Assembly: GCF_004210375.1 (NCBI RefSeq)
Contig: NC_134832.1
Span: forward strand, 150,161,592-150,225,591
Direction: 5' to 3'
Length of the DNA stretch: 64,000 nucleotides
DNA from: Tachypleus tridentatus
Taxonomy: Eukaryota; Arthropoda; Merostomata; Xiphosura; Limulidae
The position numbers were made by a program, and so were the translations under genes. The notes under the pieces were generated by a model that saw only the letters and a list, made by a program, of their open reading frames with translations, was not told the origin of the DNA and made no database searches. This document shows positions 1 through 34,137 of the stretch, in pieces (positions within the stretch are counted from its first letter, which is position 1; each line of letters opens with the position of its first letter).

Positions 1-804
1 CGTGGGAATGTTGAAATAAAATGGCGGGTTTCATGGCTATCTTTATAAACATCCTCAACCTTAATGGAGAAAGTGTTTATAAATATATATATTATTTTTA
101 GTGGTAACAGGTCGTGAATCATGTATCAAGGATCCACAGTCCAGTGTACTGACAACTCTGACGCACTGCCTGAAAGAACATTCAATCTTTTTTTCCCATG
201 TTTATGACCACAAGCCACACTCCAGTCATTTGTTTGAATTTTTAAAGTTTAGGAGTGCACAGTGAAAAGAAAATCAAATATTCATAGAGAGTATGATACG
301 TAGATACAAGAATGTAACCTACGGTTCATTTGTTAATAATACTTCATATAAAACAAATGTGACGAAGTGGTTAGCGGGGAGATTACGAATGAGAGAAACC
401 AGGCGTGTGTCTCGCTAGTATAAAATCACATTTAGTACTTTAAATTAGTGGATGTGTAATGAGTGTGACAGTCACATTTTAATATTTGATGATAGTAGTC
501 CAACAGCAGTAGATATAGTACTTTAGCTGTTTTCTCTCCAGTTCAATATTAGGAATGGTTAGTATCATAAAAACCTTGGAAGTTTTCCATGAATATCTGA
601 TATTAAAAATAACAACAGTAAGTAATTCACTTTAAACTGAACACCATCCTAACCTGGTGTGAAGATTATTAGCCTTATTTCATACGAAAGGAAACACGAT
701 ACGTAAATAAAATGTTGCACTAAATAGTTTATAAGTCGTTAAACATCAATTCAACATCTTATCTGTGAAACTACAGCCTACATCAGTAACATTAAATCAA
801 TTCC

Positions 805-925
805 CTAGTGGCATATTGGACCGTTTGTGGACTTAAAACTCTTGCAAATTGATTTTGATACTCGTGGTGTGAAGAGAATAGGCAACTGTTTATGTTGCTT
901 TGTGCTTAACCACAAAACAAACAAA
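805..925 (+). mobile_element. SINE family 3 remnant in intron 1 (copy 1)
   Basis: It starts with CTAGTGGCA, has a decayed tRNA-like body with the B-box-like GATACTCGTGG, and ends in TTTGTGCTTAACCAC plus an ACAAAC tail, as in the better preserved member at 27,784. It lies just before the exon 2 acceptor, in the same orientation as the gene. The same insertion is at 7,485-7,604, 13,789-13,908 and 20,531-20,650, so it predates the array's duplication. Confidence 0.75.
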
Positions 926-970
926 TGTTAAAGTCACTTGTGTTTCTAAACACGAATTATATTCTTTCAG

Positions 971-1189
971 CTTGTCATCTGTGTTGTCTTATCCCTTGTT
1001 GCTACAAGCTTGGCTGGGTATTATGGAGGACTTTTAGGTTACAGAGGTGTTCTTGGCGGTGGATATGGAGGTTATCTTGGCGGTGGGTATGGAAATTATC
1101 TTGGCGGTGGGTATGGACACGGAATTCACGGTGTCTACTGTCCTTGGGCTTATCCCGTTTACCCTCATTACGGTGGTTATTACCACTAA
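971..1189 (+). CDS. Secreted Gly/Tyr-rich small protein, copy 1 (exon 2 only; exon 1 outside window)
   Basis: This is the second coding exon of the array gene. The acceptor TTCTTTCAG ends at 970, and the exon supplies the rest of the signal peptide (LVICVVLSLVATSLA) and the whole mature chain. Exon 1, coding Met-Lys-Phe-Thr, must lie left of the window. This copy has three GGGYG repeats where the other three copies have four. It is 24 bp (8 residues) shorter, with GGY rather than GSY after the first repeat, for a predicted mature chain of 57 residues. The C-terminal part with the single Cys, from HGVYCPW to the final His, is the same as in the other copies. No frame damage is visible. Function is not known; a structural cuticle protein or a Gly-rich defence peptide are the likely options. 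Confidence 0.8.
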   Translation, partial: LVICVVLSLVATSLAGYYGGLLGYRGVLGGGYGGYLGGGYGNYLGGGYGHGIHGVYCPWAYPVYPHYGGYYH

Positions 1190-1657
1190 ATGGTTAGTTC
1201 ATTAAATATTTAATTAATAATTATAAGGGTTATATCTACTTTGTCTTACAACAGGAGGATGTATGATATTGAAATATTGTACGAATTTATTTGATATAAA
1301 TAACAAAACTGACGTTGTGAAAGCAATGTGTTAAAATACCAAAGCCTTTTTTATTTTTATTTCACGATATTTATATTTTAATAAACCGTCACCACTAGAA
1401 TAGTTTGTAAGTAACATTTGTATCTGTAGGTTTGATATAACATAAGTTCAGGTTAATCACTGTTATTATTAATGTAGATAAATACTGACAAGGGGGGAAC
1501 TTAGAATTGTTTAATAAGTGTGATTGTTAATCTAGAGATCTAAGAATTAAAACGATACTTAAATGAAGTGACATGTGATAATAAAATTGACTGTCGTTTC
1601 TTGTTCTGTTATAACTCAATCGAACAACTTTGTACTGACAGACTCTTTACTTTCCAG

Positions 1658-1800
1658 GATGTAAGGAAAGTGGCCAACGAAAAGAGCCGTTTACATGTTC
1701 GTCGCATCAAACAAGATAATCAAGTTGTGAATTCGAATTACTGTACTATGCATTTCTTTTGTAAATTTACACTAGTAAATAAATGTTTTGAAATGAAAAC
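1658..1800 (+). other. Candidate 3' UTR exon of copy 1
   Basis: A strong acceptor (CTTTACTTTCCAG, ending 1,657) is followed by about 120 bp and AATAAA at 1,778-1,783. A donor-like GTTAGT lies 3 bp after the exon 2 stop (from 1,193), so a 3' UTR intron is plausible. A second AATAAA near 1,380 could instead end an unspliced transcript. The arrangement is repeated in all four units. Confidence 0.45.
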
Positions 1801-4800
1801 TGTTTTATGATTTTTCACCGAGGCTTAACATATGCTTAAGGCATAATGAACACATCCGTCTGAGTACAGTATACTGTTGTTCATTGTCCTTAAAGGGTAG
1901 TCGGGAACTTTTGTGTGTGAGTTTGTAACAGAACAAAGTTCATGATAAACATCTGCCAACAGGAGAACCATAGTGGTTTATATGTTACATTTCTCTCAGA
2001 TGAAAACATTCGTATAGCAACACTGTTGGTTGACAAAAGAACAAAAGAAAGGATGGCATGGTGCTCCAAGTAAAAGTTAATAAATTCAGATAGTCTCATA
2101 TTTAGAACACTATCGGTATCCACAATAACACCCACAAGAGAATTATGACCATAATGTTCACTGGTAAGGTGAAGACGATGATTACATAACAAACTTAACA
2201 CAATCCCCGAAACACAAACACACATCAAAGAAAAACAAGATAGAACGAAATAAAGTTCTTTCTAGTGTCTTGTGCTGTTAATAAGATAATACCTATTATC
2301 TTGGAAGGTAATGTTCACATACTCATATTCCAGGAGAATTGTAGTCAGTTTGTAAAGATAACTGGTCTATCAATAACCTTGTTTTGCTTCCCAGAAGCTG
2401 TTTGAGATAGAAATTGTAGTTCAGGGTAACACTGGATAACCATAAGCACGAGATTAAATACGAGGGTTGAGAAAACAAGTATTTAATGGGAACAAACCTC
2501 AATATAAACGGTCAGTATATCTCTGTAAATATTAATTTATTGGAGGAAACCTAAACGTATAAAAGCCACGTCATAAAATTTAGTTTTGTACAACTTACAA
2601 TAGTGGGAGTATTCTGTATATACGTAACTATGTATGTGACTGAAATAATAAAACAGTTTGACGTTATTTATTTGATCACATAATTTCATAAAATAATTCC
2701 ATACTTCGGGTATCGAAGACTCCAAGAATTATAAAATACTTACCATGTGTACAACAACCATTCCTTTATCAAGGAACACAATTTTAAATACAAGCACTTT
2801 ATTCACAAGAATAACATAACTTCACTAGAACTGTACGTGAGGGTTTAGTTATATCTTTATTGATGTAAATTATAAATACAGTTCTTATAAAGGAGTTGAT
2901 AAACCATTGTTATTTTTCAGTAAAGGGTACAACTTTGAATACATAAAAATATTACAGTTTATATCAGCACTGTCTAAACACGTTTCTCCTGTAGTACTTC
3001 ACAGAAAAATCTCTTTTGAGAAAGTGTTCATTTTTCTTAATGTTTCTAAATGAGGTATGGATACTGCGTTTAATAATTAATAGCATAAACATCTGCACAT
3101 AGGTCGTCAATTCTACAAGTATCCTAAAATACGAATTGATTCACTAGGTGTAACAACTGACAGTTATGGGTGCTTATAGAAATAAATTATATTTAAAATT
3201 CTGTAGTTTCTATTTTCTAATGTTATCTATTGAACAACACGAGCATAATAAACTAAATAGGCGACTTAGTAAAGGCCAGTGACCTACTGACATCTGGATC
3301 TCTCCGATCAATTGTTTAATGTTTACTCGTGCTGAGTACAGCGATAGTAGACCACGAGACATCCTTTCAGATACAACAAAACAAACACTAAACAGTTATG
3401 TAATGGATATTTCACTGTTTTAAGGTTCAAATGATATAACTTATTTTAATTTATGTTATAGATGTTTGCCTATAACAATTTATCCCCATGTGTGATATTA
3501 GTTTGAGTAAAATATATTTATAAGATTCATTATAAGTGGTATCTAGAGGGATAATATATCATCTATTTACGTATATATCTTAACCAGTTTGATCTTTATC
3601 CACTAGAGGTGATAAAACCCTCGATTTTGGAGTTTTAAATCATTATCTCTTCCAATGTTACTCTGTTTGACCATCATTGTTTTAACTATCATTTATCTTT
3701 TATACAACATTTTACCAGCAACAGAAGAATAATGATTTGATTGATATCTGTATCATAGAGAAATACCCGTTTTCAAAATAGCTTTGAAGAGTAAAATTCT
3801 TTGTTTGTTCTGCTCAACTGGAATGTTGAAAACTGAAACCATGTTTTGAAAGTTAGAAGTCTCCAAACTAATCATAGTTTCAGTGGGGAGCGGTGTTGGG
3901 TTCGTAACGTTTTTGTCCAGTTTTTATTACAATAAATATGATATCAATATATGAATTATTTTAGGTTTTACAAAATGTGCTTATATTTACAGGATAATAA
4001 GTACAATCTAAAGAAGGTTATGTTAATATAAATGTTTAATTGGTGGTAATATAAAGGTTGTCTTACTTTCAGGTTTAAAAAGCACCGATTATTATTCAGT
4101 TTTAGAAAATTATATTTTTCACTTTGTGTCATTGATTTTGAAACTTATAGATTAGAACCTAACCAAAACTCAACTTATGAACCTTAGATGAAATCTTTCC
4201 TTTACCCAAGATGGAGACATTTGTTGAGTCATTCATACTTCATGATATATATGAGGCATATAGAGTATATATTTCATAGATTGCAGGACAGAGCATAATG
4301 TAAAATCCATAACCTCGTATAAAAAAGTATATACATTAGAAAAACTGAATACTTCTCTCTGTTTTACTGTCGTCTAGGCTTACGTAACCCTAATCCAAAG
4401 ACTGATGATAAGCCTGAACTTAGTTGTTTTACAAACTAAACACAAACAACAAATAATAATTCATACTAACTAAAATTATAGAATTACTAAAATAAGTTTA
4501 GTAGCTACTCTTAAATATAGCCATGAAATGTTTTATTTTCTAATGCTTGGTGTAACGTCTTTGATCAACATATGATGATATACATGGAGAACAAATACCA
4601 ATAATGATACGAGTGATTTAAAACTTTCGTAACAATGTATTTAATATCGCAAGACGGACGTGACTGAGTGATAAACGGTTATGGTCTTGAAATGGGATGA
4701 TTCGTGGTTCGCTATCCGTTACTTACCAAAATGGTCTGCAGTTAGGGGCTCTTTTATAGAGTTGGTCACATATTTCCATTTCTCACAGAAAAGTATGCCT

Positions 4801-5394
4801 GGAGTTGGCGGCGAGTTTTGTTGCCTTCCCTTTAGTTTATCAGACTAGACACAGAGACCCTTCTCTTATAAGATATTAAAAAATCTTCAATAATTTTTTT
4901 GTTATTTACTAGAATGAGACTGGTAACAAATTTGATCATATATTTATTTCGTAAAGATCTGACATATCAAGTTATACATTCATTGTACACCATAAGACTG
5001 AACACATCTAACACATAAACGTGCACACGAACATTGCTCAAATCAGAAATAGACGAGTCCTTTTATGTAGTTGTTTACATATATAATGTAATATGTTTAT
5101 GTATACGTATTATGTTAATACACATAAAGAGAAATGAAACTATTAAAATAACCAGATAAGATTATCAACAGTACATCCTTTCTTTAACATCACAAACTAG
5201 TCTTCCTAGCAATTTAAATGTGTAGAGGAACAACCTACGTAAATAATAGTGTAGTTTAAACGGCTACCAATATATGTCACTTACGTACGATTCAATAAAT
5301 AAATTCAAGCGCAATTTTTGAATGAACAAAATATATATTCTTTGATTTTTGTTAAATTTCTGTTGTTATAACTGAGAAGATTGGAAGTGTCAAA
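1801..5394. other. Spacer of unit 1, subtype A
   Basis: I see no convincing gene here. Open frames on the minus strand (1,890-2,228 and 2,537-2,725) recur in the other units only because the units are near-identical, and indels change their ends. Subtype-A markers are CATAGGTCGTC near 3,100 and TATAGAGTATA near 4,260, both shared with unit 3. Confidence 0.7.
4640..4870 (+). mobile_element. Old SINE family 1 remnant in the spacer
   Basis: A decayed tRNA-like head (GGTTCGCTATCCG) is followed by the family 1 body: GAGTTGGCGGCGAGT, TTGCCTTCCCTTTAGT, then a diverged tail. Equivalent copies are at about 17,675-17,905 and 24,395-24,625. In unit 2 the head has been lost by a deletion near 11,340 and only the body remains (about 11,345-11,440). 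The insertion predates the array. Confidence 0.6.
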
Positions 5395-5419
5395 TGATTG
5401 GTAGAATTTAAACCAATCA
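5395..5419. promoter_or_regulatory. Paired inverted CCAAT boxes upstream of copy 2
   Basis: TGATTGGT (5,395-5,402) and ACCAATCA (5,412-5,419) form a perfect 8-bp inverted repeat with a 9-bp spacer, so a CCAAT box lies on each strand. It lies about 410 bp upstream of the TATA box. The same element is at 11,962-11,986 for copy 3, where a deletion brings it to about 173 bp, and at about 18,429-18,453 for copy 4. Binding by NF-Y is a guess from the motif. Confidence 0.4.
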
Positions 5420-5809
5420 GAGAGCTGTGATATTTAATACCTATAAGTATTATATGATCTGATATATCAGGGCTCGAGTTGAACGACATGATTGTAAAAA
5501 TTGTTATCAGTTAAAACTTGTACTACCAGTCAGCTGTTGCTTAGATTATTTTGTTTTTCCACATACAAATATATTTAATACGTTAACATTAGTTAGTGTT
5601 TGTAAATCTTGTTATATCGGGGAACTGAAAATAAACCTTAAAAAAATAAATTATGAATATTTGAAAGAAAACGAGAAAAAACAAAATAAGGTAAACAATA
5701 AAAATGCCTTTAAAACTGACTCTAGGTATTCGTATACTATTTTCATTAATAAATACATTAGATAACTATCAATAATTTCTCTCAAAAAATATGTTTAAGA
5801 ACTTCCTGT

Positions 5810-5836
5810 GAACGTTCTCGGCGAATAGTATAAAAG
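5810..5836 (+). promoter_or_regulatory. Core promoter of copy 2: GAACGTTC palindrome and TATA box
   Basis: TATAAAAG is at 5,829-5,836, 78 bp before the ATG. The 8-bp palindrome GAACGTTC is at 5,810-5,817. It has the GAAnnTTC form of two facing heat-shock half sites, although a palindrome of this size can serve other dimeric factors. Transcription would start about 30 bp after the TATA, near 5,860. The same layout stands before copies 3 and 4. Confidence 0.7.
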
Positions 5837-5913
5837 GAGGTTTGTTGTACCCAAGCAGGTATTATCGAGTTGTTTGAGAAAACGAGAGAGTTTGTTTGGT
5901 TAGTGCTAAAAAG

Positions 5914-7892
5914 ATGAAGTTCACTGTAAGTATATGTTAATAACAGTAGTTATCTAGATATACTAAAATATATGTACTTATTCAATTCATTAACTAAGTG
6001 TAACAGACTATTATTTTATTTTAGGATTTAGATTCATTCAATTAACTCTCTTTGAAACGAAAGTATAATTAGGCTTAATACGGATTACACAAAATAACTT
6101 GTGTTGATATGACTTTTCATCTATAAATAAATATTGGATTAAAACAATTCTCTAAAGTAAAATTAAGCAACAACAGCATTCCACGTCAAATCTAAATATT
6201 TCACTCAATTAAAATGTTAGTGAAGAAAAATCGTGTTTTATCTTTTGGTAAGAACAAAGTAACACAATATGATATTTTGTTCTGAACACATTTTATAGCC
6301 CCTCAATTTACCGTTGTGGTTTGGAAAACCAACACAAATAAGGACCAATTTGGTTTAAAATACGGAAGTCATAACATTTAATATTTTCTTTACCATGTGA
6401 ACCATAAAATTGTTTAAAATTTATTATGTTGAAGTTATCTTAATATTAAAAGCTTTCTGCACTACCTAATTGGACTTGATAAACTAGAGGGAAGTGTTTA
6501 ACACCTGCCACCGTAAACACGTGATCTGTTGAAATGAGTGTGTGTGTTTTCTTGGAGCAAAGCCACATAGGGCTATCTGCTCAGCCCACCGAGGGAATCG
6601 AATCCCTGATTTTAGCGTTGTAAATCCGGAGACATACCGCTGTACTAGCGTGGGAATGTTGAAATAAAATGGCGGGTTTCATGGCTATCTTTATAAACAT
6701 CCTCAACCTTAATTTGAGAAAGTGTTTATAAATATATATATTATTTTTAGTGGTAACAGGTCGTGAATCATGTATCAAGGATCCACAGTCCAGTGTACTG
6801 ACAACTCTGACGCACTGCCTGAAAGAACATTCAATCTTTTTTTCCCATGTTCATGACCACAAGCCACACTCTAGTCATGTTCATGACCACAAGCCACACT
6901 CAGTCATTTGTTTGAATTTTTAAAGTTTAGGAGTGCACGAGTGAAAAGAAAATCAAATATTCATAGAGAGTATAATACGTAGATACAAGAATGTAACCTA
7001 CGGTTCATTTGTTAATAATACTTCATATAAAACAAATGTGACGAAGTGGTTAGCGGGGAGAGATTACGAATGAGAGAAACCAGGCGTGTGTCTCGCTAGT
7101 ATAAAATCACATTTAGTACTTTAAATTAGTGGATGTGTAATGAGTGTGACAGTCAAATTTTAATATTTGATGATAGTAGTCCAACAGCAGTAGATATAGT
7201 ACTTTAGCTGTTTTCTCTCCAGTTCAATATTAGGGATGGTTAGTATCATAAAAACCTTGGAAGTTTTTCATGAATATCTGATATTAAAATAACAACAGTA
7301 AGTAATTCACTTTAAACTGAACACCATCCTAACCTGGTGTGAAGATTATTAGCCTCATTTCATACGAAAGGAAACACGATACGTAAATAAAATGTTGCAC
7401 TAAATAGTTTATAAGTCGTTAAACATCAATTCAACATCTTATCTGTGAAACTACAGCCTACATTAGTAACATTAAATCAATTCCCTAGTGGCATATTGGA
7501 CCGTTTGTGGACTTAAAACTCTTGCAAATTGATTTTGATACTCGTGGTGTGAAGAGAATAGGTAACTGTTTATGTTGCTTTGTGCTTAACCACAAACAAA
7601 CAAATGTTAAAGTCACTTGTGTTTCTAAATACGAATTATATTCTTTCAGCTTGTCATCTGTGTTGTCTTATCCCTTGTTGCTACAAGCTTGGCTGGGTAT
7701 TATGGAGGACTTTTAGGTTATAGAGGTGTTCTTGGCGGTGGATATGGAAGTTATCTTGGCGGTGGGTATGGAAATTATCTTGGCGGTGGGTATGGAGGTT
7801 ATCCTGGCGGTGGGTATGGACACGGAATTCACGGTGTCTACTGTCCTTGGGCTTATCCCGTTTACCCTCATTACGGTGGTTATTACCACTAA
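5914..7892 (+). CDS. Secreted Gly/Tyr-rich small protein, copy 2 (two coding exons)
   Basis: Exon 1 is 5,914-5,925 (ATG AAG TTC ACT), followed by donor GTAAGT. The phase-0 intron of 1,724 bp ends with TTCTTTCAG, and exon 2 is 7,650-7,892 with a TAA stop. The spliced product is 84 residues. Residues 1-19 (MKFTLVICVVLSLVATSLA) are a textbook signal peptide, with Ser and Ala at -3 and -1. The 65-residue mature chain is 26 Gly and 16 Tyr: four GGGYG repeats about 8 residues apart, a single Cys, then a Pro/Tyr-rich tail ending GGYYH. The exon pair is supported by the TATA box 78 bp upstream and by the way exon 1 completes the signal peptide exactly. Gly/Tyr-rich secreted proteins of this kind include arthropod cuticle and silk-like proteins and some antimicrobial peptides; which one this is cannot be told from sequence. 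The single Cys could allow disulfide dimers. Confidence 0.85.
6541..6650 (-). mobile_element. SINE family 2 in intron 1 of copy 2
   Basis: Read on the minus strand it starts CGCTAGTACAGCGG, has a GGATTCGATTCCC-type B box and the body GGTGGGCTGAGCAGATAGCCC, and ends in TTTGCTCCAAGAAAACAC. It lies opposite to the gene. The same insertion is at 12,871-12,984 and 19,579-19,692. The window's first base falls at the edge of the copy 1 equivalent. Confidence 0.8.
7485..7604 (+). mobile_element. SINE family 3 remnant in intron 1 (copy 2)
   Basis: This is the copy 2 equivalent of the element at 805-925: CTAGTGGCA start, GATACTCGTGG, TTTGTGCTTAACCAC and an ACAAAC tail. The 69-codon open frame at 7,507-7,716 is mostly this SINE and is not a gene. 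Confidence 0.75.
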
Positions 7893-8359
7893 ATGGTTAG
7901 TTCATTAAATATTTAATTAATAATTATAAGGGTTATATCTACTTTGTCTTACAACAGGAGGATGTATGATATTGAAATATTGTACGAATTTATTTGATAT
8001 AAATAACAAAACTGACGTTGTGAAAGCAATGTGTTAAAATACCAAAGCCTTTTTTATTTTTATTTCACGATATTTATATTTTAATAAACCGTCACCACTA
8101 GAATAGTTTGTAAGTAACATTTGTATCTGTAGGTTTGATATAACATAAGTTCAGGTTAATCACTGTTATTATTAATGTAGATAAATACTGACAAGGGGGA
8201 ACTTAGAATTGTTTAATAAGTGTGATTGTTAATCTAGAGATCTAAGAATTAAAACGATACTTAAATGAAGTGACATGTGATAATAAAATTGACTGTCGTT
8301 TCTTGTTCTGTTATAACTCATTCGAACAACTTTGTACTGACAGACTCTTTACTTTCCAG

Positions 8360-8502
8360 GATGTAAGGAAAGTGGCCAACGAAAAGAGCCGTTTACATGT
8401 TCGTCGCATCAAACAAGATAATCAAGTTGTGAATTCAATTACTGTACTATGCATTTCTTTTGTAAATTTACACTAGTAAATAAATGTTTTGAAATGAAAA
8501 CT
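8360..8502 (+). other. Candidate 3' UTR exon of copy 2
   Basis: The acceptor CTTTACTTTCCAG ends at 8,359 and AATAAA lies at 8,479-8,484. The matching donor GTTAGT begins at 7,896, 3 bp after the stop, so the 3' UTR intron would be 464 bp. A nearer AATAAA around 8,082 gives an unspliced alternative. Confidence 0.45.
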
Positions 8503-11500: not shown

Positions 11501-11961
11501 TTGATCATATATTTATTTCGTAAAGATCTGACATATCAAGTTATACATTCATTGTACACCATAAGACTGAACACATCTAACACATAAACGTGCACACGAA
11601 CATTGCTCAAATCAGAAATAGACGAGTCCTTTTATGTAGTTGTTTACATATATAATGTAATATGTTTATATATACGTATTATGTTAATACACATAAAGAG
11701 AAATGAAACTATTAAAATAACCAGATAAGATTATCAACAGTACATCCTTTCTTTAACATCACAAACTAGTCTTCCTAGCAATTTAAATGTGTAGAGGAAC
11801 AACCTACGTAAATAATAGTGTAGTTTAAACGGCTACCAATATATGTCACTTACGTACGATTCAATAAATAAACTCAAGCGCAATTTTTGAATAAACAAAA
11901 TATATATTCCCTGATTTTGTTAAATTTCTGTTGTTATAACTGAGAAGATGGAAGTGTCAAA
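8503..11961. other. Spacer of unit 2, subtype B
   Basis: No gene seen. Subtype-B markers shared with unit 4 include CATAGAGCGTC near 9,796 and GCATCTGTGTTGAGGC near 10,950. About 130 bp of the SINE region is deleted near 11,340, compared with units 1, 3 and 4. Confidence 0.7.
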
Positions 11962-12166
11962 TGATTGGTAGAATTTAAACCAATCAGAGAGCTGTGATAT
12001 TTAATACCTATAAGTATTATATGATCTGATATATCAGGGCTCGAGTTGAACGACATGATTCGTATACTATTTTCATTGATAAATACATTAAATAACTATC
12101 AATAATTTCTCTCAAAAAATATGTTTATGAACTTCCTGTGAACGTTCTCGGCGAATAGTATAAAAG
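11962..12166 (+). promoter_or_regulatory. Shortened promoter region of copy 3
   Basis: The inverted CCAAT pair (11,962-11,986) and TATAAAAG (12,159-12,166) are both kept, but the 237 bp that correspond to 5,494-5,730 of unit 1 are missing at about 12,060. The deletion joins ATT to ATT, a 3-bp microhomology. Copy 3 therefore has a shorter upstream region than its sisters. Confidence 0.7.
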
Positions 12167-12243
12167 AAGGTTTGTTGTACCCAAGCAGGTATTATCGAGT
12201 TGTTTGAGAAAACGAGAGAGTTTGTTTGGTTAGTGCTAAAAAG

Positions 12244-14196
12244 ATGAAGTTCACTGTGAGTATATGTTAATAACAGTAGTTATCTAGATATACTAAAATA
12301 TATGTACTTATTCAATTCATTAACTAAGTGTAACAGACTATTATTTTATTTTAGGATTTAGATTCATTCAATTAACTCTCTTTGAAACGAAAGTATAATT
12401 AGGCTTAATTCGGATTACACAAAATAACTTGTGTTGATATGACTTTTTATCTGTAAATAAATATTGGATTAAAACAATTCTCTAAAGTAAAATTAAGCAA
12501 CAACAGCATTCCACGTCAAATCTAAATATTTCACTCAATTAAAAATGTTAGTGAAGAAAAATCGTGTTTTTATCTTTTGGTAAGAACAAAGTAACACAAT
12601 ATGATATTTTGTTCTGAACACATTTTATAGCCCCTCAATTTACCGTTGTGGTTTGGAAAACCAACACAAATAAGGACCAATTTGGTTTAAAATACGGAAG
12701 TCATAAAATTTAATATTTTCTTTACCATGTGAACCATAAAATTGTTTAAAATTTATTATGTTGGAGTTATCTTAATATTAAAAGCTTTCTGCACTACCTA
12801 ATTGGACTTGATAAACTAGAGGGAAGTGTTTAACACCTGCCACCGTAAACACGTGATATGTTGAAACGAGTGTGTGTGTTTTTCTTATAGCAAAGCCACA
12901 TAGGGCTATCTGCTCAGCCCACCGAGGGGAATCGAATCCCTGATTTTAGCGTTGTAAATCCGGAGACATACCGCTGTACTAGCGTGGGAATGTTGAAATA
13001 AAATGGCGGGTTTCATGGCTATCTTTATAAACATCCTCAACCTTAATTGGAGAAAGTGTTTATAAATATATATATTATTTTTAGTGGTAACAGGTCGTGA
13101 ATCATGTATCAAGGATCCACAGTCCAGTGTACTGACAACTCTGACGCACTGCCTGAAAGAACATTCAATCTTTTTTTCCCATGTTTATGACCACAAGCCA
13201 CACTCCAGTCATTTGTTTGAATTTTTAAAGTTTAGGAGTGCACGAGTGAAAAGAAAATCAAATATTCATAGAGAGTATAATACGTAGATACAAGAATGTA
13301 ACCTACGGTTCATTTGTTAATAATACTTCATAAAAAACAAATGTGACGAAGTGGTTAGCGGGGAGAGATTACGAATGAGAGAAACCAGGCGTGTGTCTCG
13401 CTAGTATAAAATCACATTTAGTACTTTAAATTAGTGGATGTGTAATGAGTGTGACAGTCAAATTTTAATATTTGATGATAGTAGTCCAACAGCAGTAGAT
13501 ATAGTACTTTAGCTGTTTTCTCTCCAGTTCAATATTAGGAATGGTTAGTATCATAAAACCTTGGAACTTTTCATGAATATCTGATATTAAAAATAACAAC
13601 AGTAAGTAATTCACTTTAAACTGAACACCATCCTAACCTGGTGTGAAGATTATTAACCTCATTTCATACGAAAGGAAACACGATACGTAAATAAAATGTT
13701 GCACTAAATAGTTTATAAGTCGTTAAACATCAATTCAACATCTTATCTGTGAAACTACAGCCTACATTAGTAACATTAAATCAATTCCCTAGTGGCATAT
13801 TGGACCGTTTGTGGACTTAAAACTCTTGCAAATTGATTTTGATACTCGTGGTGTGAAGAGAATAGGTAACTGTTTATGTTGCTTTGTGCTTAACCACAAA
13901 CAAACAAATGTTAAAGTCACTTGTGTTTCTAAATACGAATTATATTCTTTCAGCTTGTCATCTGTGTTGTCTTATCCCTTGTTGCTACAAGCTTGGCTGG
14001 GTATTATGGAGGACTTTTAGGTTATAGAGGTGTTCTTGGCGGTGGATATGGAAGTTATCTTGGCGGTGGGTATGGAAATTATCTTGGCGGTGGGTATGGA
14101 GGTTATCCTGGCGGTGGGTATGGACACGGAATTCACGGTGTCTACTGTCCTTGGGCTTATCCCGTTTACCCTCATTACGGTGGTTATTACCACTAA
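12244..14196 (+). CDS. Secreted Gly/Tyr-rich small protein, copy 3 (two coding exons)
   Basis: Exon 1 is 12,244-12,255 and its donor is GTGAGT, where copies 2 and 4 have GTAAGT; both are good donors. Exon 2 is 13,954-14,196. The predicted 84-residue product is the same as that of copies 2 and 4: a 19-residue signal peptide and a 65-residue mature chain with four GGGYG repeats and one Cys. The intron is 1,698 bp and carries the SINE family 2 and family 3 remnants. The promoter lacks 237 bp of upstream sequence present before copies 2 and 4. Function is as uncertain as for copy 2. Identical protein from separate units points to recent duplication or gene conversion. Confidence 0.85.
12871..12984 (-). 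mobile_element. SINE family 2 in intron 1 of copy 3
   Basis: Same insertion as at 6,541-6,650, minus strand, with B box GGATTCGATTCCC. Confidence 0.8.
13789..13908 (+). mobile_element. SINE family 3 remnant in intron 1 (copy 3)
   Basis: Same insertion as at 805-925, just upstream of the exon 2 acceptor at 13,953. Confidence 0.75.
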
Positions 14197-14664
14197 ATGG
14201 TTAGTTCATTAAATATTTAATTAATAATTATAAGGGTTATATCTACTTTGTCTTACAACAGGAGGATGTATGATATTGAAATATTGTACGAATTTATTTG
14301 ATATAAATAACAAAACTGACGTTGTGAAAGCAATGTGTTAAAATACCTAAGCCTTTTTTATTTTTATTTCACGATATTTATATTTTAATAAACCGTCACC
14401 AGTAGAATAGTTTGTAAGTAACATTTGTATCTGTAGGTTTGATATAAGATAAGTTCAGGTTAATCACTGTTATTATTAATGTAGATAAATACTGACAAGG
14501 GGGGAACTTAGAATTGTTTAATAAGTGTGATTGTTAATCTAGAGATCTAAGAATTAAAACGATACTTAAATGAAGTGACATGTGATAATAAAATTGACTG
14601 TCGTTTCTTGTTCTGTTATAACTCAATCGAACAACTTTGTACTGACAGACTCTTTACTTTCCAG

Positions 14665-14808
14665 GATGTAAGGAAAGTGGCCAACGAAAAGAGCCGTTTA
14701 CATGTTCGTCGCATCAAACAAGATAATCAAGTTGTGAATTCGAATTACTGTACTATGCATTTCTTTTGTAAATTTACACTAGTAAATAAATGTTTTGAAA
14801 TGAAAACT
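14665..14808 (+). other. Candidate 3' UTR exon of copy 3
   Basis: The acceptor CTTTCCAG ends at 14,664 and AATAAA lies at 14,785-14,790, as in the other units. Confidence 0.45.
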
Positions 14809-17800
14809 GTTTTATGATTTTTAACCGAGGCTTAACATATGCTTAAGGCATAATGAACACATCCGTCTGAGTACACTATACTGTTGTTCATTGTCCTTAA
14901 AGGGTAGTCGGGAACTTTTTGTGTGTGAGTTTGTAACAGAACAAAGTTCATGATAAACATCTGCCAACAGGAGAACCATAGTGGTTTATATGTTACATTT
15001 CTCTCAGATGAAAACATTCGTATAGCAACACTGTTGGTTGACAAAAGAACAAAAGAAAGGATGGCATGGTGCTCCAAGTAAAAGTTAATAAATTCAGATA
15101 GTCTCATATTTAGAACACTATCGGTATCCACAATAACACCCACAAGAGAATTATGACCATAGTGTTCACTGGTAAGGTGAAGACTATGATTACATACCAA
15201 ACTTAACACAATCCCCGAAACACAAACACACATCAAAGAAAAACAAGATAGAACGAAATAAAGTTCTTTCTAGTGTTTTGTGCTGTTAATAAGATAATAC
15301 CTATTATTTTGGAAGGTAATGTTCACATACTCATATTCCAGGAGGATTGTAGTCAGTTTGTAAAGATAACTGGTCTATCAATAACCTTGTTTTGCTTCCC
15401 AGAAGCTGTTTGAGATAGAAATTGTAGTTCAGGGTAACACTGGATAACCATAAGCACGAGATTAAATACGAGGGTTGAGAAAACAAGTATTTAATGGGAA
15501 CAAACCTCAATATAAACGGTCAGTATATCTCTGTAAATATTAATTTATTGGAGGAAACCTAAACGTATAAAAGCCACGTCATAAAATTTAGTTTTGTACA
15601 ACTTACAATAGTGGGAGTATTCTGTATATACGTAACTATGTATGTGACTGAAATAATAAAACAGTTTGACGTTATTTATTTGATCACATAATTTCATAAA
15701 ATAATTCCATACTTCGGATATCGAAGACTCAAGAATTATAAAATACTTACCATGTGTACAACAACCATTCCTTTATCAAGGAACACAATTTTAAATACAA
15801 GCACTTTATTCACAAGAATAACATAACTTCACTAGAACTGTACGTGAGGGTTTAGTTATATCTTTATTGATGTAAATTATAAATACAGTTCTTATAACGG
15901 AGTTGATAAACCACTGTTATTTTTTTCAGTAAAGGGTACAACTTTGAATACATAAAAATATTACAGTTTATATCAGCACTGTCTAAACACGTTTCTCCTG
16001 TAGTACTTCACAGAAAAATCTCTTTTGAGAAAGTGTTCATTTTTCTTAATGTTTCTAAATGAGGTATGGATACTGCGTTTAATAATTAATAGCATAAACA
16101 TCTGCACATAGGTCGTCAATTCTACAAGTATCCTAAAATACGAATTGATTCACTAGGTGTAACAACTGACAGTTATGGGTGCTTATAGAAATAAATTATA
16201 TTTAAAATTCTGTAGTTTCTATTTTCTAATGTTATCTATTGAACAACACGAGCATAATAAACTAAATAGGCGACTTAGTAAAGGCCAGTGACCTACTGAC
16301 ATCTGGATCTCTCCGATCAATTGTTTAATGTTTACTCGTGCTGAGTACAGCGATAGTAGACCACGAGACATCCTTTCAGATACAACAAAACAAACACTAA
16401 ACAGTTATGTAATGGATATTTCACTGTTTTAAGGTTTAAATGATTGGAGACTATAAACGAGTTAGATATAACTTATTTTAATTTATGTTATAGATGTTTG
16501 CCTATAACAATTTATCCCCATGTGTGATATTAGTTTGAGTAAAATATATTTATAAGATTCATTATAAGTGGTATCTAGAGGAATAATATGTCATCTATTT
16601 ACGTATATATCTTAACCAGTTTGATCTTTATCCACTAGAGGTAATGAAACCCTCGATTTTGGAGTTTTAAATCATTATCTCTTCCAATGTTACTCTGTTT
16701 GACCATCATTGTTTTAATTATCATTTATCTTTTATACAACATTTTACCAGCAACAGAAGAATAATGATTTGATTGATATCTGTATCATAGAGAAATACCC
16801 GTTTTCAAAATAGCTTTGAAGAGTAACATTCTTTGTTTGTTCTGCTCAACTGGAATGTTGAAAACTGAAACCATGTTTTGAAAGTTAGAAGTCTCCAAAC
16901 TAATCATAGTTTCAGTGGGGAGCGGTGTTGGGTTCGTAACGTTTTTGTCCAGTTTTTATTACAATAAATATGATATCAATATATGAATTATTTTAGGTTT
17001 TACAAAATGTGCTTATATTTACAGGATAATAAGTACAATCTAAAGAAGGTTATGTTAATATAAATGTTTAATTGGTGGTAATATAAAGGTTGTCTTACTT
17101 TCAGGTTTAAAAAGCACCGATTATTATTCAGTTTTAGAAAATTATATTTTTCACTTTGTGTCATTGATTTTGAAACTTATAGATTAGAACCTAACCAAAA
17201 CTCAACTTATGAACCTTAGATGAAATCTTTCCTTTACCCAAGATGGAGACATTTGTTGAGTCATTCATACTTCATGATATATATGAGGCATATAGAGTAT
17301 ATATTTCATAGATTGCAGGACAGAGCATAATGTAAAATCCATAACCTCGTATAAAAAGTATATACATTAGAAAAACTGAATACTTCTCTCTGTTTTACTG
17401 TCGTCTAGGCTTACGTAACCCTAATCCAGAGACTGATGATAAGCCTGAACTTAGTTGTTTTACAAACTAAACACAAACAACAAATAATAATTCATACTAA
17501 CTAAAAATTATAGAATTACTAAAATAAGTTTAGTAGCTACTCTTAAATATAGCCATGAAATGTTTTTATTTTCTAATGCTTGGTGTAACGTCTTTGATCA
17601 ACATATGATGATATACATAGGAGAACAAATACCAATAATGATACGAGTGATTTAAAACTTTCGTAACAATGTATTTAATATCGCAAGACGGACGTGACTG
17701 AGTGATAAACGGTTATGGTCTTGAAATGGGATGATTCGTGGTTCGCTATCCGTTACTTACCAAAATGGTCTGCAGTTAGGGGCTCTTTTATAGAGTTGGT

Positions 17801-18428
17801 CACATATTTCCATTTCTCACAGAAAAGTATGCCTGGAGTTGGCGGCGAGTTTTGTTGCCTTCCCTTTAGTTTATCAGACTAGACACAGAGACCCTTCTCT
17901 TATAAGATATTAAAAAAATCTTCAATAATTTTTTTGTTATTTACTAGAATGAGACTGGTAACAAATTTGATCATATATTTATTTCGTAAAGATCTGACAT
18001 ATCAAGTTATACATTCATTGTACACCATAAGACTGAACACATCTAACACATAAACGTGCACACGAACATTGCTCAAATCAGAAATAGACGAGTCCTTTTA
18101 TGTAGTTGTTTACATATATAATGTAATATGTTTATGTATACGTATTATGTTAATACACATAAAGAGAAATGAAACTATTAAAATAACCAGATAAGATTAT
18201 CAACAGTACATCCTTTCTTTAACATCACAAACTAGTCTTCCTAGCAATTTAAATGTGTAGAGGAACAACCTACGTAAATAATAGTGTAGTTTAAACGGCT
18301 ACCAATATATGTCACTTACGTACGATTCAATAAATAAATTCAAGCGCAATTTTTGAATGAACAAAATATATATTCTTTGATTTTTGTTAAATTTCTGTTG
18401 TTATAACTGAGAAGATTGGAAGTGTCAA
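14809..18428. other. Spacer of unit 3, subtype A
   Basis: No gene seen. It shares the unit 1 markers (CATAGGTCGTC near 16,110, TATAGAGTATA near 17,290). It has a private insertion of about 20 bp near 16,443 (GATTGGAGACTATAAACGAG). An old SINE lies at about 17,675-17,905. Confidence 0.7.
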
Positions 18429-18862
18429 ATGATTGGTAGAATTTAAACCAATCAGAGAGCTGTGATATTTAATACCTATAAGTATTATATGATCTGATAT
18501 ATCAGGGCTCGAGTTGAACGACATGATTGTAAAAATTGTTATCAGTTAAAACTTGTACTACCAGTCAGCTGTTGCTTAGATTATTTTGTTTTTCCACATA
18601 CAAATATATTTAATACGTTAACATTAGTTAGTGTTTGTAAATCTTGTTATATCGGGGAACTGAAAATAAACCTTAAAAAAATAAATTATGAATATTTGAA
18701 AGAAAACGAGAAAAACAAAATAAGGTAAACAATAAAAATGCCTTTAAAACTGACTCTAGGTATTCGTATACTATTTTCATTAATAAATACATTAGATAAC
18801 TATCAATAATTTCTCTCAAAAAATATGTTTAAGAACTTCCTGTGAACGTTCTCGGCGAATAG

Positions 18863-18870
18863 TATAAAAG
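18863..18870 (+). promoter_or_regulatory. TATA box of copy 4
   Basis: TATAAAAG lies 79 bp before the exon 1 ATG, with the GAACGTTC palindrome just upstream (about 18,844-18,851). The full-length upstream region is present, unlike copy 3. Confidence 0.7.
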
Positions 18871-18948
18871 GAGGTTTGTTGTACCCAAGCAGGTATTATC
18901 GAGTTGTTTGAGAAAACGAGAGAGTTTGTTTGGTTAGTGCTAAAAAAG

Positions 18949-20938
18949 ATGAAGTTCACTGTAAGTATATGTTAATAACAGTAGTTATCTAGATATACTA
19001 AAATATATGTACTTATTCAATTCATTAACTAAGTGTAACAGACTATTATTTTATTTTAGGATTTAGATTCATTCAATTAACTCTCTTTGAAACGAAAGTA
19101 TAATTAGGCTTAATACGGATTACACAAAATAACTTGTGTTGATATGACTTTTCATCTGTAAATAAATATTGGATTAAAACAATTCTCTAAAGTAAAATTA
19201 AGCAACAACAGCATTCCACGTCAAATCTAAATATTTCACTCAATTAAAAATGTTAGTGAAGAAAAATCGTGTTTTTATCTTTTTGGTAAGAACAAAGTAA
19301 CACAATATGATATTTTGTTCTGAACACATTTTATAGCCCCTCAATTTACCGTTGTGGTTTGGAAAACCAACACAAATAAGGACCAATTTGGTTTAAAAAT
19401 ACGGAAGTCATAACATTTAATATTTTCTTTACCATGTGAACCATAAAAATTGTTTAAAATTTATTATGTTGAAGTTATCTTAATATTAAAAGCTTTCTGC
19501 ACTACCTAATTGGACTTGATAAACTAGAGGGAAGTGTTTAACACCTGCCACCGTAAACACGTGATCTGTTGAAATGAGTGTGTGTGTTTTTCTTGGAGCA
19601 AAGCCACATAGGGCTATCTGCTCAGCCCACCGAGGGGAATCGAACCCCTGATTTTAGCGTTGTAAATCCGGAGACATACCGCTGTACTAGCGTGGGAATG
19701 TTGAAATAAAATGGCGGGTTTCATGGCTATCTTTATAAACATCCTCAACCTTAATTTGAGAAAGTGTTTATAAATATATATATTATTTTTTATTGGTAAC
19801 AGGTCGTGAATCATGTATCAAGGATCCACAGTCCAGTGTACTGACAACTCTGACGCACTGCCTGAAAGAACATTCAATCTTTTTTTCCCATGTTCATGAC
19901 CACAAGCCACACTCTAGTCATGTTCATGACCACAAGCCACACTCCAGTCATTTGTTTGAATTTTTAAAGTTTAGGAGTGCACGAGTGAAAAGAAAATCAA
20001 ATATTCATAGAGAGTATAATACGTAGATACAAGAATGTAACCTACGGTTCATTTGTTAATAATACTTCATAAAAAACAAATGTGACGAAGTGGTTAGCGG
20101 GGAGAGATTACGAATGAGAGAAACCAGGCGTGTGTCTCGCTAGTATAAAATCACATTTAGTACTTTAAATTAGTGGATGTGTAATGAGTGTGACAGTCAA
20201 ATTTTAATATTTGATGATAGTAGTCCAACAGCAGTAGATATAGTACTTTAGCTGTTTTCTCTCCAGTTCAATATTAGGAATGGTTAGTATCATAAAAAAC
20301 CTTGGAACTTTTTCATGAATATCTGATATTAAAAATAACAACAGTAAGTAATTCACTTTAAACTGAACACCATCCTAACCTGGTGTGAAGATTATTAGCC
20401 TCATTTCATACGAAAGGAAACACGATACGTAAATAAAATGTTGCACTAAATAGTTTATAAGTCGTTAAACATCAATTCAACATCTTATCTGTGAAACTAC
20501 AGCCTACATTAGTAACATTAAATCAATTCCCTAGTGGCATATTGGACCGTTTGTGGACTTAAAACTCTTGCAAATTGATTTTGATACTCGTGGTGTGAAG
20601 AGAATAGGCAACTGTTTATGTTGCTTTGTGCTTAACCACAAACAAACAAATGTTAAAGTCACTTGTGTTTCTAAATACGAATTATATTCTTTCAGCTTGT
20701 CATCTGTGTTGTCTTATCCCTTGTTGCTACAAGCTTGGCTGGGTATTATGGAGGACTTTTAGGTTATAGAGGTGTTCTTGGCGGTGGATATGGAAGTTAT
20801 CTTGGCGGTGGGTATGGAAATTATCTTGGCGGTGGGTATGGAGGTTATCCTGGCGGTGGGTATGGACACGGAATTCACGGTGTCTACTGTCCTTGGGCTT
20901 ATCCCGTTTACCCTCATTACGGTGGTTATTACCACTAA
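18949..20938 (+). CDS. Secreted Gly/Tyr-rich small protein, copy 4 (two coding exons)
   Basis: Exon 1 is 18,949-18,960 with donor GTAAGT, and exon 2 is 20,696-20,938. The predicted 84-residue protein is identical to copies 2 and 3 (MKFTLVICVVLSLVATSLA signal peptide, then the GGGYG-repeat chain ending GGYYH). The intron is 1,735 bp and carries the same two SINE remnants. It also has a 30-bp direct duplication near 19,890-19,950 that is shared with copy 2 but absent from copies 1 and 3. The gene is followed by a candidate non-coding exon with AATAAA. It is the last copy seen on the right of the array. Confidence 0.85.
19579..19692 (-). mobile_element. SINE family 2 in intron 1 of copy 4
   Basis: Same insertion as at 6,541-6,650, minus strand. 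Here the B box reads GGGGTTCGATTCCC, closest to the family form. Confidence 0.8.
20531..20650 (+). mobile_element. SINE family 3 remnant in intron 1 (copy 4)
   Basis: Same insertion as at 805-925, upstream of the exon 2 acceptor at 20,695. Confidence 0.75.
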
Positions 20939-21405
20939 ATGGTTAGTTCATTAAATATTTAATTAATAATTATAAGGGTTATATCTACTTTGTCTTACAA
21001 CAGGAGGATGTATGATATTGAAATATTGTACGAATTTATTTGATATAAATAACAAAACTGACGTTGTGAAAGCAATGTGTTAAAATACCAAAGCCTTTTT
21101 TATTTTTATTTCACGATATTTATATTTTAATAAACCGTCACCACTAGAATAGTTTGTAAGTAACATTTGTATCTGTAGGTTTGATATAACATAAGTTCAG
21201 GTTAATCACTGTTATTATTAATGTAGATAAATACTGACAAGGGGGAACTTAGAATTGTTTAATAAGTGTGATTGTTAATCTAGAGATTTAAGAAGTAAAA
21301 CGATACTTAAATGAAGTGACATGTGATAATAAAATTGACTGTCGTTTCTTGTTCTGTTATAACTCAATCGAACAACTTTGTACTGACAGACTCTTTACTT
21401 TCCAG

Positions 21406-21548
21406 GATGTAAGGAAAGTGGCCAACGAAAAGAGCCGTTTACATGTTCGTCGCATCAAACAAGATAATCAAGTTGTGAATTCGAATTACTGTACTATGCA
21501 TTTCTTTTGTAAATTTACACTAGTAAATAAATGTTTTGAAATGAAAAC
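21406..21548 (+). other. Candidate 3' UTR exon of copy 4
   Basis: The acceptor CTTTCCAG ends at 21,405 and AATAAA lies at 21,526-21,531. Confidence 0.45.
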
Positions 21549-24500
21549 TGTTTTATGATTTTTAACCTAGGCTTAACATACGCTTAAGGCATAATGAACA
21601 CATCCGTCTGAGTACAGTATACTGTTGTTCATTGTCCTTAAAGGGTAGTCGGGAACTTTTGTGTGTGAGTTTGTAACAGAACAAAGTTCATGATAAACAT
21701 CTGCCAATAGGAGAACCATAGTGGTTTATATGTTACATTTCTCTCAGATGAAAACATTCGTATAGCAACACTGTTGGTTGACAAAAGAACAAAAGAAAGG
21801 ATGGCATGGTGCTCTAAGTAAAAGTTAATAAATTCAGATAGTCTCATATTTAGAACACTATCGGTATCCACAATAACACCCACAAGAGAATTATGACCAT
21901 AGTGTTCACTGGTAAGGTGAAGACGATGATTACATAACAAACTTAACACAATCCCCGAAACACAAACACACATCAAAGAAAAACAAGATAGAACGAAATA
22001 AAGTTCTTTCTAGTGTTTTGTGCTGTTAATAAGATAATACTTATTATTTTGGAAGGTAATGTTCACATACACATATACCAGGAGGATTGTAGTCAGTTTG
22101 TAAAGGTAACTGGTCTATCAATAACCTTGTTTTGCTTCCCAGAAGCTGTTTGAGATAGAAATTGTAGTTCAGGGTAACACTGTATAACCATAAGCACGAG
22201 ATTAAATACGAGGGTTGAGAAAACAAGTATTTAATGGGAACAAACTTCAATATAAACGGTCAGTATATCTCTGTAAATATTAATTTATTGGAGGAAACCT
22301 AAACGTATGAAAGCCACGTCACAAAATTTAGTTTTGTACAACTTACAATAGTGGGAGTATTCTGTATGTACGTAACTATGTATGTGACTGAAATAATAAA
22401 ACAGTTTGACGTTATTTATTTGATCACATAATTTTATAAAATAATTCCATACTTCGGATATCGAAGACTCCAAGAATTATAAAATACTTACCATGTGTAC
22501 AACAACCATTCCTTTATCAAGGAACACAATTTTAAATACAAGCACTTTATTCACAAGAATAACATAACTTCACTAGAACTGTACGTGAGGGTTTAGTTAT
22601 ATCTTTATTGATGTAAATTATAAATACAGTTCTTATAACGGAGTTGATAAACCACTGTTATTTTTTCAGTAAAGGGTACAACTTTGAATACATAAAAATA
22701 TTACAGTTTATATCAGCACTGTCTAAACACGTTTCTCCTGTAGTACTTCACAGAAAAATCTCTTTTGAGAAAGTGTTCATTTTTCTTAATGTTTCCAAAT
22801 GAGGTATGGACACTGGGTTTAATAATTAATAGCATAAACATCTGTACATAGAGCGTCAATTCTACAAGTATCCTTAAATACGAATTGATTCACTAGGTGT
22901 AAGAACTGACAGTTATGGGTGCTTATTGAAATAAACTGTATTTAAAATTCTGTAGTTTCTGTTTTATAAAATTATCTATTGAACAACACGAGCATAATAA
23001 ACTAAATAGGCGACTTAGTAAAGGCCAGTGACCTACTGACATCTGGATCTCTCCGATCAATTGTTTAATGTTTACTCGTGCTGAGTACAGCGATAGTAGA
23101 CCACGAGACATCCTTTCAGATACAACAAAACAAACACTAAACAGTTATGTAATGGATATTTCACTGTTTTAAGGTTCAAATGATATAACTTATTTTAATT
23201 TATGTTATAGATGTTTGCCTATAACAATTTATCCCCATGTGTGATATTAGTTTGAGTAAAATATATTTATAAGATTCATTATAAGTGGTATCTAGAGGAA
23301 TAATATGTCATCTATTTACGTATATATCTTAACCAGTTTGATCTTTATCCACTAGAGGTAATGAAACCCTCGATTTTGGAGTTTTAAATCATTATCTCTT
23401 CCAATGTTACTCTGTTTGACCATCATTGTTTTAATTATCATTTATCTTTTATACAACATTTTACCAGCAACAGAAGAATAATGATTTGATTGATATCTGT
23501 ATCATAGAGAAATACCCGTTTTCAAAATAGCTTTGAAGAGTAACATTCTTTGTTTGTTCTGCTCAACTGGAATGTTGAAAACTGAAACCATGTTTTGAAA
23601 GTTAGAAGTCTCCAAACTAATCATAGTTCCAGTGGGGAGCGGTGTTGGGTTCGTAACGTTTTTGTCCAGTTTTTATTACAATAAATATGATATCAATATA
23701 TGAATTATTTTAGGTTTTACAAAATGTGCTTATATTTACAGGATAATAAGTACAATCTAAAGAAAGTTATGTTAATATAAATGTTTAATTGGTGGTAATA
23801 TAAAGGTTGTCTTACTTTCAGGTTTAAAAAGCACCGATTATTATTCAGTTTTAGAAAATTATATTTTTCACTTTGTGTCATTGATTTTGAAACTTATAGA
23901 TTAGAACCTAACCAAAACTCAACTTAAGAACCTTAAATGAAATCTTTCCTTTACCTAAGATGGAGACATTTGTTGAGTCATTCATACTTCATGATATATA
24001 TGAGGCATCTGTGTTGAGGCATATATTTCATAGATTGCAGGACAGAGCATAATGTAAAATCCATAACCTCGTATAAAAAAAGTATATACATTAGAAAAAC
24101 TGAATACTTCTCTCTGTTTTACTGTCGTCTAGGCTTACGTAACCCTAATCCAGAGACTGATGATAAGCCTGAACTTAGTTGTTTTACAAACTAAACACAA
24201 ACAACAAATAATAATTCATACTAACTAAAAATTATAGAATTACTAAAATAAGTTTAGTAGCTACTCTCAAATATATCCATGAAATGTTTTTATTTTTTAA
24301 TGCTTGGTGTAACGTCTGTGGTCAACATATGATGATATACATAGAACAAATACCCATAATGCTACGAGTGATTTAAAACTTTTGTAACAATGTATTTAAT
24401 ATCGCAAGACGGACGTGACTGAGTGATAAACGGTTATGGTCTTGAAATGGAATGATTCGTGGCTCGCTACCCGTTACTTACCAAAATGGTCTGCAGTTAG

Positions 24501-24770
24501 GGGCTCTTTTATAGAGTTGGTCACATATTTCCATTTCTCACAGAAAAGTGTGCCTGGAGTTGGCGGCGAGTTTTGTTGCCTTCCCTTTAGTTTATCAGAC
24601 TAGACACAGAGACCCTTCTCTTATAAGATATTTAAAAAATCTTCAATAATTTGTTTGGTATTTACTAGAATGAGAATGGTAACAAATTTGATCATATATT
24701 TATTTAGTAAAGATCTGACATATCAAGTTATACATTCATTGTACACCATAAGACTGAACACATCTAACAT
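21549..24770. other. Spacer of unit 4, subtype B, ending the array
   Basis: No gene seen. It shares the unit 2 markers (CATAGAGCGTC near 22,848, GCATCTGTGTTGAGGC near 24,005) but keeps the old SINE head (about 24,395-24,625) that unit 2 lost. From about 24,640 substitutions become more frequent, and after about 24,770 only a diverged resemblance remains. Confidence 0.7.
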
Positions 24771-33637: not shown

Positions 33638-34137
33638 NNNNNNNNNNNNNNNNNNNNNNNNNNNNNNNNNNNNNNNNNNNNNNNNNNNNNNNNNNNNNNN
33701 NNNNNNNNNNNNNNNNNNNNNNNNNNNNNNNNNNNNNNNNNNNNNNNNNNNNNNNNNNNNNNNNNNNNNNNNNNNNNNNNNNNNNNNNNNNNNNNNNNNN
33801 NNNNNNNNNNNNNNNNNNNNNNNNNNNNNNNNNNNNNNNNNNNNNNNNNNNNNNNNNNNNNNNNNNNNNNNNNNNNNNNNNNNNNNNNNNNNNNNNNNNN
33901 NNNNNNNNNNNNNNNNNNNNNNNNNNNNNNNNNNNNNNNNNNNNNNNNNNNNNNNNNNNNNNNNNNNNNNNNNNNNNNNNNNNNNNNNNNNNNNNNNNNN
34001 NNNNNNNNNNNNNNNNNNNNNNNNNNNNNNNNNNNNNNNNNNNNNNNNNNNNNNNNNNNNNNNNNNNNNNNNNNNNNNNNNNNNNNNNNNNNNNNNNNNN
34101 NNNNNNNNNNNNNNNNNNNNNNNNNNNNNNNNNNNNN
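33638..34137. other. Assembly gap of exactly 500 N
   Basis: The round length suggests a placeholder of unknown true size. All open frames that span it are artefacts of N translation. Confidence 0.98.

Follow-up and report, generated by a model that had tools for sequence, protein, structure and literature searches.

Gene structure, relatives and probable function of tandemly repeated Gly/Tyr-rich secreted protein genes in the horseshoe crab Tachypleus tridentatus

Introduction

What is the function of a small secreted protein made mostly of glycine and tyrosine, and why should several closely similar genes for it lie side by side in a horseshoe crab genome? These questions are raised by a stretch of 64,000 nucleotides from Tachypleus tridentatus (hereafter the window), which corresponds to C8:150161592-150225591, where C8 denotes contig NC_134832.1. 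In keeping with this origin, the genome has 19 exon matches of the coagulogen family, and one coagulogen exon agrees with the solved Tachypleus coagulogen 1aoc at 48 of 51 aligned residues. The initial annotation of this DNA, made from its letters alone, described a tandem array of such genes and took their high copy number and unchanged protein as a sign of demand for large amounts, as for a structural or defence secretion. In this work, we define the gene models of the array, place them within a wider family on the same contig, and weigh what the proteins do and how many genes there are. We favor the interpretation, with a probability of roughly 0.6, that the family consists of small extracellular tyrosine-tanned structural proteins that most likely belong to the cuticle; they would be expressed in the epidermis, incorporated into the cuticle, and oxidatively cross-linked.

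Results and Discussion

Gene structure of the array copies

Exon 2 of the Gly/Tyr-rich protein gene occurs at four places in the window (positions 971, 7650, 13954, and 20696). The model first proposed, i.e., a gene split within its signal peptide, with exon 1 at 5914-5925, exon 2 at 7650-7892, and a product of 84 residues, was upheld by our analysis. The features of the four copies, including a predicted exon in the 3' untranslated region (3' UTR), are as follows:

971-1189, plus strand: copy 1, exon 2 (76-residue protein)
1658-1783, plus strand: copy 1, 3'-UTR exon predicted from sequence, AATAAA at 1778
5829-5836, plus strand: copy 2, TATA box TATAAAAG
5914-5925, plus strand: copy 2, coding part of exon 1 (MKFT, ATGAAGTTCACT)
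7650-7892, plus strand: copy 2, coding part of exon 2 including the stop codon (84 residues), GT donor at stop+3 nt
8360-8484 (to about 8490), plus strand: copy 2, 3'-UTR exon predicted from sequence, AATAAA at 8479
12159-12166, plus strand: copy 3, TATA box
12244-12255, plus strand: copy 3, coding part of exon 1
13954-14196, plus strand: copy 3, coding part of exon 2 including the stop codon (84 residues)
14665-14790, plus strand: copy 3, 3'-UTR exon predicted from sequence, AATAAA at 14785
18863-18870, plus strand: copy 4, TATA box
18949-18960, plus strand: copy 4, coding part of exon 1
20696-20938, plus strand: copy 4, coding part of exon 2 including the stop codon (84 residues)
21406-21531, plus strand: copy 4, 3'-UTR exon predicted from sequence, AATAAA at 21526

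The 12-nt first exon of copies 2-4 lies 85-86 bp downstream of the start of TATAAAAG. These three copies have exon 1 within the window and are complete, as the initial annotation stated; copy 1, which it counted as partial, is cut solely by the window edge. Its exon 1 lies 0.7-0.8 kb upstream, outside the window, at about C8:150160850, with the promoter TATA at C8:150160765. The claim that the protein is the same in all copies did not survive, since copy 1 encodes 76 residues, lacking one 8-residue repeat of the 84-residue copies and having Gly in place of one Ser.

A third exon is very likely present in the 3' UTR of the genes of the window kind, termed type I below, given a donor closely following the stop codon and then an acceptor and polyadenylation signal. 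The GT donor at stop+3 nt was found in all ten gene models of the wider family, and the seven type I copies have both an acceptor and AATAAA downstream of it. A search with a narrow pattern recognised this acceptor in two of the three type II models but not in any of the four type III models. The likely 3'-UTR exon, the 76-residue variant of copy 1, and the wider family itself all go beyond what was first described.

Unit spacings within the array are 6679, 6304, and 6742 bp, in line with the 6.3-6.7 kb given initially. The array was originally placed at 1-24770; it is indeed there, though its homology reaches to about position 24923. Approximately 230 bp upstream of the promoter (window 5497-5727) are present in copies 2 and 4 and missing from copies 1 and 3. 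This difference between alternate units makes the array a two-unit higher-order repeat. Pieces of the 3'-terminal part of the unit also occur in inverted orientation, approximately 92% identical, at C8:150156667-150157838, which is 3.8 kb left of the window, and at C8:151695953-151697122; they contain exon 3 with some of the preceding 3'-UTR intron and downstream sequence, but no coding exon.

A family of three types with a shared tail

A pattern combining the promoter and exon 1 had 16 matches in the 2.17-Gb genome (2,167,478,450 bases, 205 contigs), all of them on C8. The reversed pattern, used as a genome-wide control, had none, and a slightly different pattern had none in 30 Markov simulations of 194 kb of sequence. 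The C-terminal tail HGVYCPWAYPVY was found at 15 or more places genome-wide, again exclusively on C8. The genes fall into three types with proteins of 76, 84, or 92 residues (type I), 87-114 residues (type II), and 93-112 residues (type III), which have in common the signal peptide, promoter type, split point, and tail. The only promoter lacking a tail, at C8:151626979, stops 95 bp short of an assembly gap, with no tail exon before the next promoter.

Eleven genes lie in C8:151.555-151.693 Mb, i.e., three of type I, three of type II, and five of type III including the gap-cut one; this count excludes the probable alternative-haplotype copies, four in the window array and one at C8:150.818 Mb. 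In a lineage informatively placed among arthropods, this adds a delimited set of 11 clustered genes whose low-complexity secreted products carry a conserved tail, together with exact gene models where open-frame scans fail. The gene layout is ordinary. Among the literature matches listed, from which subscription journals are mostly outside, no title names a Gly/Tyr-rich family of horseshoe crabs.

Two more genes for Gly/Tyr-rich secreted proteins, at C12:93955251 and C5:40838549, lack the HGVYCPWAYPVY tail. They have 12-nt exon-1 candidates encoding MKTW and MKAV, respectively, with a TATA box close to the C12 candidate only. The tail region gave a weak genome match on C6 (E 3), where there is no Gly/Tyr-rich frame of at least 70 residues, and other weak matches on C6 and C7 cover the repeat part only.

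Selection between types and recency within the array

Comparisons between types point to constraint on the protein. In the 12-codon tail, the three types vary at five sites, all by synonymous changes that leave the amino acids as they are (rough P 0.0004). For the first 21 codons, synonymous divergence (dS) is 0.81-2.89 and nonsynonymous divergence (dN) 0.14-0.25 between type I and types II/III; the values between types II and III are 0.30-0.51 and 0.04-0.12, respectively. Intron 1 gave no alignment between types in the three pairs tested, and the only alignment in downstream sequence was a 29-bp stretch shared by types II and III. As judged from these patterns, the tail of the family is under apparent purifying selection and the window copies and their relatives are functional genes.

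The near-identity of copies within the array has to be read differently. Intron 1 diverges by 1.2-1.5% between adjacent type I units, which predicts only about three changes in 243 bp, and exon identity is therefore weak evidence of selection. We thus rejected an inference of strong selection from the identical window copies; identity within the type I array reflects mainly recency.

Composition and proposed function

The mature chain of the 84-residue type I protein contains 40.0% Gly, 24.6% Tyr, and one Cys, as calculated on the identical protein of a second locus (see below); the initial estimate of 40%, 25%, and one Cys was accurate. Across all ten models, the range is 40-54% for Gly and 23-27% for Tyr. 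None of the ten mature chains, two of which are identical, contains Lys, Gln, or Glu, and nine are also free of Asp. The net charge (K+R-D-E) is 0 to +2 and the C-terminal residue is His. The signal peptide was called by eye from the sequence.

Based on these features, we propose the following model. A TATA promoter would drive a transcript of most likely three exons, whose signal-peptide sequence is interrupted after the fourth codon. Following cleavage of the signal peptide, a low-complexity Gly/Tyr/Leu chain with the invariant HGVYCPWAYPVY tail would be secreted, pack extracellularly through its Gly-Tyr repeats, and be fixed via tyrosine oxidation to 3,4-dihydroxyphenylalanine (DOPA) or dityrosine, possibly with an extra disulfide formed by the single tail cysteine. 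Transglutaminase linking requires Gln and Lys side chains. The absence of Lys, Gln, and Glu from the chains leaves covalent linking to Tyr and the single Cys and argues against a transglutaminase route. Such linking has been reported for horseshoe-crab cuticle proteins (PMC2956697). We also entertain, as a speculative extension that we consider less probable than not by a good distance, that this unnamed horseshoe-crab family uses its single-Cys tail HGVYCPWAYPVY as an assembly cap, with disulfide pairing preceding tyrosine oxidation, and that its gene number varies between haplotypes (two versus four type I genes at one locus). If true, the tail-cap family would represent a transglutaminase-free hardening route in an animal with described transglutaminase linking of cuticle proteins.

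Both the gene layout and the protein have parallels among arthropod cuticular proteins. In the account of the Anopheles R&R (CPR) genes cited here, the signal peptide is interrupted in 86% of the intron-containing genes, and first exons are 3-36 nt long with a median and mode of 12 nt (PMC2259329). The same account describes near-identical tandem copies, including one tract where the gene count of the assembly exceeded that by quantitative PCR (PMC2259329). By analogy, a first exon of four residues is usual among cuticular genes and unremarkable here, given that mode of 12 nt. The family thus resembles the CPR genes, as they are described there, in its TATA promoter, a signal peptide split after a short first exon, and near-identical tandem copies, and all ten models read in the correct frame with a 12-nt exon 1; this is a shared layout rather than membership. 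In contrast to CPR genes, the family has no R&R (Chitin_bind_4) domain, for which a Pfam scan of the ten members gave no match at E up to 1, and has a likely 3'-UTR intron at stop+3 nt.

At the protein level, the family combines a signal peptide with a Gly-rich chain bearing GG or GGY repeats. It is like the insect CPG proteins (BmorCPG1 of Bombyx and EDG91 of Drosophila) in having glycine-rich chains, with GGY repeats in BmorCPG1 (PMC2542385). CPG is described as a multigene class, with 29 in Bombyx, in which the GGY tyrosines are proposed cross-link sites; for a GGY-repeat cuticular protein of Bombyx, the authors of that report describe di-DOPA linking by tyrosinase (PMC2542385). The invariant single-Cys tail HGVYCPWAYPVY sets the family apart from CPG as described in that report, a comparison by description rather than alignment. 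Compared likewise by description, the GGY proteins of ticks, which comprise cement proteins and some called cuticle-like, share GGY motifs in secreted chelicerate proteins and differ, as they are described, from the family with its conserved tail (PMC11772090).

Several observations weigh against the proposed cuticular role. The 12-nt length of exon 1 in the ten models was set by the search pattern, although the resulting frame is right in each. In six R&R genes of this genome, exon-1 candidates were indistinguishable from chance matches, and none of the 150 candidates scored, out of 299, is an R&R cuticular match within 15 Mb of the cluster. Frames neighboring the cluster look by eye like repeats and transposon pieces rather than cuticle genes. 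No known chitin-binding domain was detected in the Pfam scan, which returned one chance match for the ten members, and no relatives of the family were found in Pfam, NCBIfam, or PDB; as far as these libraries go, the initial remark that the tail belongs to no named family is correct. Finally, an eggshell or other tanned secretion fits the composition equally well. In the library searches, three chain sequences matched NADH dehydrogenase subunit B8 (best E 0.037), one of ten members matched the prion octapeptide model (E 0.057), and there was a match to a chitinase (E 0.4); all were below threshold and were taken as low-complexity chance.

The last point deserves consideration as a rival in its own right. 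Moth chorion genes are clustered, inverted or tandem eggshell genes in high demand. A Gly/Tyr-rich eggshell (chorion) protein, or another tanned secretion from ovary or gland, would rely on the same chemistry as a cuticle protein; composition and repeats specify just a low-complexity, tyrosine-rich secreted protein, and the clustered, inverted, and tandem copies seen here would also suit such high-demand genes. The cuticular parallels on record for the 12-nt first exon and GGY-type repeats favor the cuticle instead, and we regard an eggshell or glandular origin as unlikely, though deserving of attention; no feature observed points to the ovary, although no test was directed at it. Less likely still is a role as a hemocyte antimicrobial peptide of the glycine-rich group that includes acanthoscurrin, ctenidin, and serrulin. 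Members of this group are also secreted, Gly-rich, and from chelicerates; such peptides are present in the hemocytes of spiders and scorpions (PMC6784228), and the tick GGY proteins have been proposed as antimicrobial, without direct test in the account cited (PMC11772090). However, such peptides are described as cationic, serrulin contains Arg and Lys, and serrulin and the acanthoscurrins end in an amidated lysine (PMC6784228). The family chains, by contrast, have no Lys in any of the ten models, high Tyr, one Cys, a net charge of 0 to +2, and a C-terminal His, and so are not cationic chains of this kind. Thus, of the structural or defence secretion envisaged initially, the structural part fits better and the defence part is weakened. 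As for the genes being chance open frames or decaying pseudogenes, repeat structure alone can keep low-complexity Gly/Tyr frames open; yet promoter, splice sites, signal peptide, and tail are retained in all ten models and the tail changes between types are exclusively synonymous, which leaves this explanation barely credible. A tyrosine-tanned structural protein of the cuticle remains our preferred reading.

Copy number and haplotypes

The number of type I genes depends on how the assembly is read around the window. Two features are relevant:

1-33637, no strand: window part of a 40,235-bp contig (C8:150154994-150195228, gap to gap), matching C8:151671550-151698803 inverted; probable unpurged haplotype
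33638-34137, no strand: assembly gap of 500 N; window order across the gap is unreliable

The 40,235-bp contig (window -6597 to 33637) carries the whole four-copy array and has a 500-N gap on each side. From end to end it matches the second locus, C8:151671550-151698803, which is 1.5 Mb away, in inverted orientation and as two overlapping pieces. The unique flanks of the two differ by 11 substitutions in 4248 positions and 16 in 8637 (0.19-0.26%), with 14 and 16 small gaps, respectively. The contig exceeds the second locus by 12,981 bp, compared to 12,983 bp for the two-gene repeat. From these sequences, one haplotype probably has two units at the type I locus and the other four, and the assembly structure suggests that the window array is probably the unpurged second haplotype of a two-copy locus.

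Neighboring sequence shows a similar arrangement. A 2-kb probe from the 40,235-bp contig had two full-length places (among the 40 scored of 4,777 candidates), as did one from the contig after the gap (window 38000-40000; among the 40 scored of 4,878 candidates). The second place of the post-gap contig, C8:151286401-151288408, is near-identical and in direct orientation, and by this evidence that contig also looks like a haplotype duplicate. Adjacent contigs therefore pair with different places, as expected for unpurged haplotype contigs placed by scaffolding. In addition, the type II copy at C8:150.818 Mb is 98.8% identical over 2.5 kb to one at 151.555 Mb. Other T. tridentatus assemblies are given as 1.72 and 1.94 Gb (PMC7815833); the 2.17 Gb of the present one agrees with the haplotype reading without proving it.

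The alternative is that the 40-kb block is a real second locus, lying 1.5 Mb from the main cluster and derived from a recent segmental duplication in inverted orientation, and this would give seven type I genes per haploid set. The assembly does put both copies on one chromosome, but the match starts and stops at assembly gaps on both sides, the flank substitutions amount to merely 0.19-0.26%, the neighboring contig likewise has a second copy at another place and in another orientation, and the assembly is larger than the two others. We consider a real duplication improbable. High copy number is hence doubtful, since the four-copy contig is probably an alternative haplotype, and the argument from copy number to demand is not supported: recency largely accounts for the identity, copy 1 differs, and the array is probably a haplotype of a two-copy locus. 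More generally, copy counts from this assembly region should be treated with caution as inflated, probably by unpurged haplotype contigs.

Other features of the window

A search of the window against Rfam gave no matches. Beyond the assembly gap, positions 35677-37112 hold a 62-bp minisatellite with a 183-bp higher order, and a Tc1/mariner-type transposase fragment (PF01498, E 2.7e-22) lies at 57001-57663 on the minus strand. A 50-bp satellite of approximately 66 copies occupies 60665-64000 and continues past the window end. The motifs of 43550 and 43711 reappear inside this satellite at 61454 and 61615, as if interrupted by another element.

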